Position numbers and translations under genes: made by a program. Below the pieces are notes generated by a model, which had not been told where the DNA came from, did no database searches, and saw only the letters and a list, made by a program, of their open reading frames with translations. Of a DNA stretch of 64,000 nucleotides, positions 5,680 to 64,000 are shown piece after piece. The stretch comes from Alloprevotella sp. OH1205_COT-284. GTDB lineage: Bacteria; Bacteroidota; Bacteroidia; Bacteroidales; Bacteroidaceae. Position 1 is the first letter of the stretch. Each line of letters opens with the position of its first letter. The stretch is taken from contig NZ_RQYI01000008.1 in assembly GCF_003859795.1 (NCBI RefSeq), forward strand, positions 1 to 64,000, read 5' to 3'.

Positions 5680-5725
5680 CTACAAAGGAGTTAGATTTTT
5701 CTACAATGGAGTTACGAATTTCTAC
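5680..5725 (+). repeat. CTAC module of three boxes, 21-bp spacing (copy A)
   Basis: CTAC occurs at 5680, 5701 and 5722, exactly 21 bp apart, in units like CTACAAAGGAGTTAG and CTACAATGGAGTTACG. A comparable module lies beside the CG-rich end of the other complete repeat copies. Confidence 0.65.
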
Positions 5726-5797
5726 GCCTTAGGCCGTGCGCCCCATCGCCCAACCCCGCCAAACGGCAACAGCGAAAGGCGAAATGACCGGCGGCTT

Positions 5798-6188
5798 ACG
5801 CGTACGCGCGCGCATCCCTCTGTTATCACATTTTGCCTCCGCTGCCTTTGCAAAACGAGATAACCGGCTGAAAGACAATATTATATTTGCGAAGGCAAGT
5901 GAAGGCAAAACGCATCGATCCGGCACAAGTTGCTGTTTGTCAATATTTTGAGAGCGATTTTTGCCTTCACAAACATCTCGAAAGGGTATTTTCGCGGCAC
6001 AACAGCGGAAGCAAGTGAAGGCAAAGCCCCCTTTTGCCTTCACCGTATCCCCGCTGATTATCAATCTCTTGAAAAATCCTTTAAGGGGTTTGCCTTCACT
6101 TGCCTTCGCACATAACCATTTGATTTACAGTTGTTCGTGCGTTTTAGCGGAGGAAAAAACGGAAAAACAAAAAAACAGGGGTAAAAAC
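5798..6188 (+). repeat. Composite intergenic repeat, copy A
   Basis: Starts with an alternating CG tract (ACGCGTACGCGCGCGC). It then has TTTTGCCTCCGCTGCC, GCGAAGGCAAGTGAAGG, TTTTTGCCTTCAC, GCGGAAGCAAGTGAAGG, TTTTGCCTTCACCG and TTTGCCTTCACTTGCC, and ends TTTTAGCGGAGG followed by an A-rich tail with ACAGGGGTAAAAAC. The order and spacing match copies B and C. No coding frame is maintained across copies. Confidence 0.8.
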
Positions 6189-6308
6189 GCCCTTTCGAGC
6201 GTTCGTTCAAACCGATTTGAAGGGCTCAACATGACTTTCGACATATTCCGCCCCACCGACGCAGAGAAATCCCTGCTTCCTCCCGCTCGAAAGTTTCACG
6301 CTCCGCTC

Positions 6309-24980: not shown

Positions 24981-25026
24981 TGACGCCTCGACGCGCCGCC
25001 GTTTTTTCAGAAAAAGAAGCCACTCT

Positions 25027-25411
25027 CGCGCACGCGCGCGTTACCTTATTATTAAATTTTGCTTTCACTGCCTTCGCATTTTCTTGTAAAGTTTTGAATT
25101 TCATCTGTTTATGAGCGAAGGCAAATGAAGGCAAAACAAAAATGGAAATTGCAACCCCTTGACAGTCTTCGGTTTATGCCGATTTTTTGCTTTCACCACC
25201 TCGAAAATGGCATTTCAAGCCGCCGTTGCGGCGGAGGCAGGTGAAAGGAACAGGGAGTTTTGCCTTCACCGTTAAATTCTGATTTTCAGTGTTCTGTGAT
25301 TTTTGATTTTGCTTTGCCTTCACTTGCCTTCGCAAGGAATACACAGAAAATCAATTGAATAGCCGGTTTTGCGAAGGCAAAACGGCAAAAACAAAAAAAA
25401 AGGGTAGAAAA
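25027..25411 (+). repeat. Composite intergenic repeat, copy B
   Basis: Same order as copy A: CGCGCACGCGCGCG tract, TTATTAAATTTTGCTTTCAC, GCGAAGGCAAATGAAGG, TTTTTTGCTTTCACC, GCGGAGGCAGGTGAAAGG, TTTTGCCTTCACCG, TTTGCCTTCACTTGCC, then GCGAAGGCAAAACGGC with an A-rich tail ending near AGGGTAGAAA. Confidence 0.8.
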
Positions 25412-25741
25412 ATGCCTTTCTGCCACTTGGAAGAGCACCAAACCACCGTTTGAGGATAGAGCCGAACATGGAGATCAGCCTTATTTTCTCTTTCATGCAG
25501 TCTTTTTGAGAAGAAATTCTTTTTTGGTTTGGTAATCTGAAAACAATGGGGTAATTTTGGCCATAAGAAAGAGTGTTAGGTGTTTGATTTTTAGAACCTT
25601 TGAAAAACGAACAATTGCAGAAACAGCAAAAGACCTTCTCTTTTTTATGACTTTATCTCATTGGGCTTGCATTATCCGCTGCCCCCATACATGCCGACAT
25701 TACCCATAAACCGATAATCATAAAATCGACATCACAAATAT

Positions 25742-54172: not shown

Positions 54173-54563
54173 GATTTCCCCCTGTTTTTTTGTTTTTTCC
54201 GTTTTGCTTCCGCTAAATCTTCTATCTTGCTGATATACTGTGTTTTGTTTGCGAAGGCAAAGTGAAGGTAAACTGGTTGTGGAATTTTTAATTATCTGAA
54301 AATCAGATTGCTGATAGCGGAGGCAAAAACTCTTTTTCCTTTCACTTGCTTCCGCCAAGCGGCGCGTGAAATCTCCTTCTTATGGCGAAGTGAAGGCAAA
54401 AAAACGAGTTAAAAGGGTGTATTTCAGTGTTTTGGAAATCCTTTTTTCATTTTGCCTTCACTTGCCTTCGCTAAAAACGGACTGATATTCAGGTGTTTGT
54501 CTCGTTTGGTGAAGGCAGTGAAAGCAAAATGCAATGATAAGGGAAACGCGCGCGTGCGCGCGT
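54173..54563 (-). repeat. Composite intergenic repeat, copy C
   Basis: Inverted relative to copies A and B. Read on the minus strand: CGCGCGTGCGCGCG, ATTTTGCTTTCACTGCC, GCGAAGGCAAGTGAAGG, TTTTTGCCTTCAC, GCGGAAGCAAGTGAAAGG, TTTTTGCCTCCGC, TTACCTTCACTTTGCC, TTTAGCGGAAGCAAAACGG, and an A-rich tail with ACAGGGGG. Confidence 0.8.
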
Positions 54564-54614
54564 AAAAGAGATCAGAGGGAGTTTCTGCGGCGGAAAGATT
54601 TCACTACCTCCCAT

Positions 54615-54660
54615 GTAGAACGAACGGGCTCTGAGGTAGAATTTTCCGCCTCAGAGGTAG
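54615..54660 (-). repeat. CTAC module of three boxes, 21-bp spacing (copy C)
   Basis: GTAG on the plus strand at 54615, 54636 and 54657, exactly 21 bp apart. On the minus strand the units begin CTACCTCTGAGGCGG, CTACCTCAGAGCC and CTACATGGGAGG. Confidence 0.65.
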
Positions 54661-63623: not shown

Positions 63624-63917
63624 CTCCTTCTCGCACCCTTGTTTCGTTGCCGTAAGGCGGTTGCAAAAACGTGGAAGCGGCAAGATGAACACGTAGGTCT
63701 GTTTGATCGAAAAAAGCGGAAAGTTTTTTAGAGGCGCGGCGGTTTCGCCGTGTCTTTTCGCTTTCGGGAGGTGTAGTGATGTGGAAGTGTGACGCGTGTC
63801 GATACCGATCGGGGAATATGTCGTTGCGGTTCGTTCTCCGAAAAAAACTGTCGGTTGTCGCGATGAAGACGAACGCAGATTTCCATTCGTCGATGAAACC
63901 GCTGTTTTCTGCCGATT
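63624..63917. other. Gene-free interval at the window end
   Basis: Nothing recognised except a possible small hairpin around 63731-63760 (GCGGCGGTTTCGCCGTG). Confidence 0.5.
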
Positions 63918-64000
63918 TTCCACCCTGTTTTTTTATTTTTGCCGTTTTGCTTCCGCTAAATCGGTTATCTGATTGATTTTCTGCGTGTTTCTTGCGAAGG
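63918..64000 (-). repeat. Composite intergenic repeat, copy D (cut by window end)
   Basis: Shares the tail of copy C: CACCCTGTTTTTTTATT, GCCGTTTTGCTTCCGCTAAA, ATCTGATTGATTTTC and CTTGCGAAGG at the end. Inverted orientation; the rest lies outside the window. Confidence 0.7.

Follow-up and report, generated by a model that had tools for sequence, protein, structure and literature searches.

What is the composite repeat that recurs between the genes of this stretch of DNA, and what purpose might it serve? The window (the whole 64,000-nucleotide stretch analysed, part of contig C68 in an assembly of 93 contigs and 2.305 Mb) was first described as holding three complete copies and one partial copy of a repeat of about 390 bp, for which a MITE-like element, a nucleoid-protein binding array and a small-RNA locus had been suggested.

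Copies and anatomy of the element

A profile HMM built from 16 copies matched all four copies at the positions first described (Table 1), and the pattern GAAGGCAARTGAAGGCAAA, with up to three mismatches, was found 138 times in the genome as compared with 3 matches for the reversed control pattern. The composite repeat was confirmed and is more widespread than claimed, with about 61 places in the window's genome against four in the window; 55 full copies, from stretches taken around the matches, were aligned. The oral Alloprevotella species that carry the element have from 43 to about 73 copies per genome. Literature searches, confined to an open library, returned no description of the ~390-bp Alloprevotella repeat.

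Table 1. Copies of the element in the window, with the parts of copy E1 and the adjoining arrays.
Feature	Positions	Strand	Description	Basis
Copy E1	5786..6221	+		HMM match, E 5.6e-103
E1 CG tract	5797..5815	+	19 bp, alternating purine-pyrimidine, Z-DNA-prone	
E1 word pair 1	5831..5851	-	TTTTGCCTCCGCTGCCTTTGC	sequence
E1 word pair 2	5889..5909	+	GCGAAGGCAAGTGAAGGCAAA, two direct 10-bp repeats	sequence
E1 word 3	5958..5970	-	TTTTTGCCTTCAC	sequence
E1 word pair 4	6005..6025	+	GCGGAAGCAAGTGAAGGCAAA	sequence
E1 word 5	6032..6045	-	TTTTGCCTTCACCG	sequence
E1 word pair 6	6089..6109	-	TTTGCCTTCACTTGCCTTCGC	sequence
E1 word 7	6147..6162	+	GCGGAGGAAAAAACGG, degenerate, then A-rich end	sequence
V array adjoining E1	5680..5729	unassigned	GAGGTAG-like palindromic words, degenerate at E1	
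Copy E2	25013..25415	+	P-type ATPase gene (-) on one side, tRNA/EF-Tu cluster (+) on the other	HMM match
E2 CG tract	25027..25041	+	15 bp, alternating	
Copy E3	54175..54571	-	phosphoglucomutase-family gene and glycosyltransferase gene on either side	HMM match
E3 CG tract	54546..54564	-	19 bp, alternating	
V array adjoining E3	54604..54660	unassigned	CTACCTCCCATGTAG, CGGGCTCTGAGGTAG, CCGCCTCAGAGGTAG, 21-bp period	
Copy E4	63882..64000	-	cut by the window end, complete in the contig	HMM match

Words and palindromes make up the element, an array of ~390 bp in which the V array (where present) is followed by the alternating CG tract, by words in the order and orientations << >> < >> < << > and by an A-rich end with GGGG; most copies have a conserved right tail ending in GGCGGTTTCATCG. 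The word itself is the 10-bp GYGAAGGCAA, present in both orientations and mainly as tandem pairs, and four palindromes of the form CAA-N5-TGAWWWTCA-N5-TTG, as read from the consensus, lie between the word groups. In most of the 55 copies the word positions shift by only ~1-2 bp, and three of the spacer lengths are 37 bp (50 of 55 copies), 43 bp (range 42-44) and 32 bp (all 55). The sequence of the spacers is near random between copies (median identity 36%, maximum 82%), and near-identical young copies were not found among them. The aligned copies thus bear out quantitatively that words are conserved and spacers differ within a fixed layout, and uphold the earlier proposal of selection on short words and their arrangement, the diverged spacers being near-constant in length.

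Elements of the window's genome have a CG tract at a single end, and their conserved right end TTTCATCG is not matched on the left. A terminal inverted repeat CGATGAAACCGCC was considered and rejected for this genome, where it is strong at the right end and at about the shuffled level at the left. The V array, composed of CTACCTCNGAGGTAG palindromes, was likewise rejected as an integral part of the element; since it is also present on contigs with no detected word array, it is regarded as an independent family often accompanying the element. Such arrays were seen on contigs C1, C2, C8, C13, C24, C35 and C46, among others, and their 21-bp period corresponds to two helical turns per unit.

Constraint on the sequence and relatives in one clade

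Related elements with a looser CG-plus-word pattern occur in HOT 473 F0040 (HOT 473), Prevotellaceae bacterium Marseille-P2826 (P2826) and Alloprevotella sp. Lung230 (Lung230). They share the CG tracts and carry related words in other arrangements; the exact word of the window's genome gave no match when searched in the genome contig collection. The sequence GTGAARGCAAAA is found 248 times in the window's genome, 110 times in Lung230, 85 times in P2826 and 82 times in HOT 473, with at most 9 occurrences in each other genome listed in the family search, and the element was found in none of those sampled. Since GTGAARGCAAAA is enriched in only four genomes, the family is restricted to a small clade, whose sister species use different words. 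HOT 473 and P2826 have inverted arms of CG tract and word at the element ends, and in 26 of 31 elements each end carries a CG tract no shorter than 12 bp. A second word type, GTCGGAGATTT / AAACGTGGGAGA, was observed in both orientations in the interiors and flanks of these elements, where it replaces the V array. At four loci of HOT 473, runs of 20 N stand inside the element arms with the arm sequence duplicated on either side, and these are taken to be scaffolding joins at element repeats.

Eight pairs of P2826 and HOT 473 elements were compared as orthologues, with the reservation that some pairs, whose flanks align poorly, may not be truly orthologous; they gave 344 identical positions of 349 in the arms (98.6%), 1398 of 1961 in the interior (71%) and 60% identity in the flanks. 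Among the most similar pairs within the window's genome (spacers 61-82% identical), 810 of 816 word positions were identical as against 800 of 1100 spacer positions, a comparison that is biased because the word columns had been picked for conservation; the between-species comparison is the stronger test of constraint. In all 55 copies the CG tract alternates purine and pyrimidine over 15-27 bp, and substitutions in it are mostly transitions (91 against 16 transversions, compared with 1320 against 1921 in the spacers). Because this excess keeps the alternation, it resembles selection for alternation and hence for Z-DNA propensity. Retention of the tract for its alternation, a Z-DNA-prone property, would look like this, in agreement with the earlier suggestion that the tract could form Z-DNA.

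Mutual exclusion, chromosomal position and gene context

Copies of the element exclude each other. The smallest gaps measure 11.5 kb in P2826, 9.7 kb in HOT 473, 9.1 kb in the window's genome and 5.9 kb in Lung230, so that gaps below 5 kb number zero in the four species against ~5-11 expected. With a null model restricted to intergenic DNA (one site per 3.9 kb), the observed minimum gap was never reached in 3000 simulations in three species, P2826 and HOT 473 sharing many positions and not being independent. A periodicity of ~10 kb, apparent by eye, was discarded, as the data show exclusion instead.

The position of the elements relative to the origin was measured in P2826 only, whose 2.76-Mb scaffold is a near-complete chromosome, the window's genome and Lung230 being too fragmented. 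Its 43 elements lie between 0.44 and 2.06 Mb, apart from one at 2.55 Mb, and 37 of the 43 fall in the origin-proximal half when the origin is set at 1.45 Mb (P 1.6e-6; one chromosome). Cumulative GC skew has its minimum at ~1.4-1.7 Mb (forty 20-kb samples); C strongly outnumbers G at four-fold sites of the coding strands ((G-C)/(G+C) ~ -0.31 in 20-kb samples), and for this reason the raw skew mainly reflects gene direction. Once gene strand is corrected for, the minimum, which is noisy, lies at ~1.40-1.47 Mb; the rRNA operons on either side are directed away from that region, and dnaA is located at 1.08 Mb. HOT 473 is also patchy, with a 556-kb stretch of one contig lacking elements.

All 55 aligned full copies are intergenic, one of them overlapping a weak predicted reading frame (genes were called by a simple codon-usage script). 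The arrangement of the flanking genes, in 49 cases, is convergent (13), tandem (26) or divergent (10), and the orientation of the element itself is mixed along the contigs; both gene context and orientation are random. A replication-direction signal of the Tus or KOPS kind was rejected on the alternating orientations, and a terminator or promoter role on the random gene context. The species share only part of their element positions: some elements adjoin the same gene in the window's genome and in other species, but in the comparison with the P2826 sample just a minority of the flanking-gene matches fell within 2 kb of an element. At places ~5 kb apart, an element of P2826 is missing from HOT 473 and one of HOT 473 from P2826, but the intergenic DNA there is too diverged for an insertion to be read. 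Similar copies in unrelated flanks indicate that the unit has been copied to new places.

A putative binding-site array and its rivals

The explanation tentatively preferred, with somewhat less than even confidence, is that the element is a dispersed array of putative protein-binding sites by which the chromosome is marked or organised, as by SlmA, Noc and MatP sites. We infer protein binding, a chromosomal function and the process thereby served: one or more sequence-specific proteins would assemble into a defined complex with the DNA of every copy, at tandem 10-bp words and four palindromes whose spacing is fixed along the double helix and whose layout has near-two-fold symmetry, beside the Z-DNA-prone CG tract and the palindrome array of 21-bp period, and the copies together would act as landmarks organising or marking the origin-proximal chromosome. 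Of the three readings first suggested, the nucleoid-protein binding array fits best with the rigid layout, the conserved words, the exclusion, the origin bias and the random gene context, and the exclusion together with the origin grouping in P2826 suggests a chromosome-organising landmark and not the debris of dead transposons. Against it stand the restriction to one clade (4 of the Alloprevotella genomes tested) and the differing words of sister species, which are unusual for a core function, as well as the partial conservation of positions and the recent duplicates that show copying to new places; the likeness of the words could also be due to gene conversion among copies. More doubtful is the further claim of a hitherto unknown chromosome-organising system, in which tens of spaced, origin-proximal nucleoprotein platforms would have binding words that change jointly between sister species. 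To our knowledge, no macrodomain or nucleoid-occlusion site system is known in Bacteroidota, and one narrow literature search found none.

The main rival, a family of miniature non-autonomous transposons, is less likely, yet accounts for exclusion and copying equally well. The words would then be transposase-binding arms, the layout that of a transpososome and the 6-11 kb exclusion a target immunity such as that of Mu, Tn7 or Tn3, and the CG-ended inverted arms of HOT 473 and P2826, the recent duplicates in unrelated flanks, the differences in presence between species and the change of the word as a set from species to species all agree with such an origin. It fails mainly on the absence of target-site duplication (in 30 elements the best 5-mer offset count was 3, against a shuffled mean of 1.2 and maximum of 3) and on the conservation of words at shared sites, where the P2826/HOT 473 pairs keep their words while the interior decays, as would not be expected of immobile transposon copies. 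Furthermore, neither an autonomous partner with the same ends nor a gene-carrying copy was found among the listed P2826 arms, all of which are paired within ~116-673 bp, and the right-end motif of the window's genome lacks a left-end counterpart. Phage and plasmid collections yielded no match, on which ground an origin from either was rejected; a single exact word match in viral contigs is taken as chance. For the MITE-like part of the preliminary description the evidence points both ways, with copies duplicated into new places on one side and, on the other, no target-site duplication or gene-carrying copy found and words conserved at shared sites. A domesticated mini-transposon would unite the transposon and binding-array readings.

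Control of DNA topology, with the CG tract flipping to Z-DNA and the array buffering or bounding supercoiling domains, seems improbable: the alternation is conserved in all copies and across species despite the change of word, and the spacing of ~10-20 kb would suit such a role, but topology alone does not explain the strict word sequence. Still less probable is a gene-level element, that is, a bidirectional terminator, promoter or mRNA stabiliser like some BIME/REP repeats, which the intergenic location and the many inverted repeats would allow, since the flanking genes show no preferred arrangement, orientation is random and exclusion in spacing is not expected of it. A structured non-coding RNA repeated across the genome has very little probability. 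The words can pair, and RNAalifold folds them into concentric stems (-66.7 kcal/mol), but the covariation term is just -0.92, double changes occur in 4 of 56 pairs, the loops are of fixed length and free sequence, and the word order varies among species. An Rfam search returned only tRNAs (the window at the gathering threshold, four loci at E 0.1). The proposed small-RNA locus finds no favour in these results, in the random gene context or in the fixed spacer lengths, which suit double-stranded DNA.

The array is likened to the known site systems on account of its number, position and independence of genes, and is not a member of their kind, since each of those consists of one short palindrome and its protein is known. 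Noc has ~70 sites and SlmA 24-52 per chromosome, in both cases rare near the terminus and not tied to gene regulation (PMC4726725, PMC3116907). The Alloprevotella element resembles these SlmA (SBS) and Noc (NBS) sites in having tens of sequence-specific, gene-independent copies, biased in P2826 to the origin half. It differs in being a ~390-bp array with a CG tract in place of a 12-14 bp palindrome, in mutual exclusion, in species-specific words and in being always intergenic, SlmA sites lying mostly within coding regions (PMC3116907). The 23 matS sites of MatP, which define a chromosomal macrodomain (PMC3116907), are similarly dispersed and number in the tens; each matS, however, consists of a single 13-bp palindrome and is limited to the terminus region, whereas the P2826 elements avoid the terminus half.

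Among mobile elements, BrickBuilt of Porphyromonas gingivalis is a MITE of an oral Bacteroidales (PMC4596501) that is likewise intergenic and multicopy with internal repeated words, but nothing was seen in Alloprevotella to match its IS5-like ends, its 19 copies, its tandem repeats of 23 nt or its empty sites with a single copy of the target. The Tn3-derived TIMEs carry ends of the Tn3 family, give rise to direct repeats and mostly occur once per genome (PMC4133298). Like the Alloprevotella element, they have inverted ends around a non-coding core, and transposition immunity of the Tn3 type could explain the exclusion (PMC4133298); unlike them, the element has tens of copies, direct repeats were not found, and the element ends inspected by eye showed no resemblance to Tn3-family ends (~38-39 bp). 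The tens of copies, fixed layout, exclusion and origin bias offer a direct handle for finding the putative binding protein. Should the family be a transposon after all, it would represent a mini-element with target immunity at the scale of a chromosome, retained under selection.

Two further repeats were observed in P2826. Tandem TTAGACGTTAGAGATTAGA-like repeats directly adjoin the element near 1,335 kb, and a separate dispersed repeat of ~200 bp, with copies 79-90% identical, is present also in the terminus half, at 637, 707, 911, 925, 1191, 1759, 1893, 2677, 2731 and 2748 kb.
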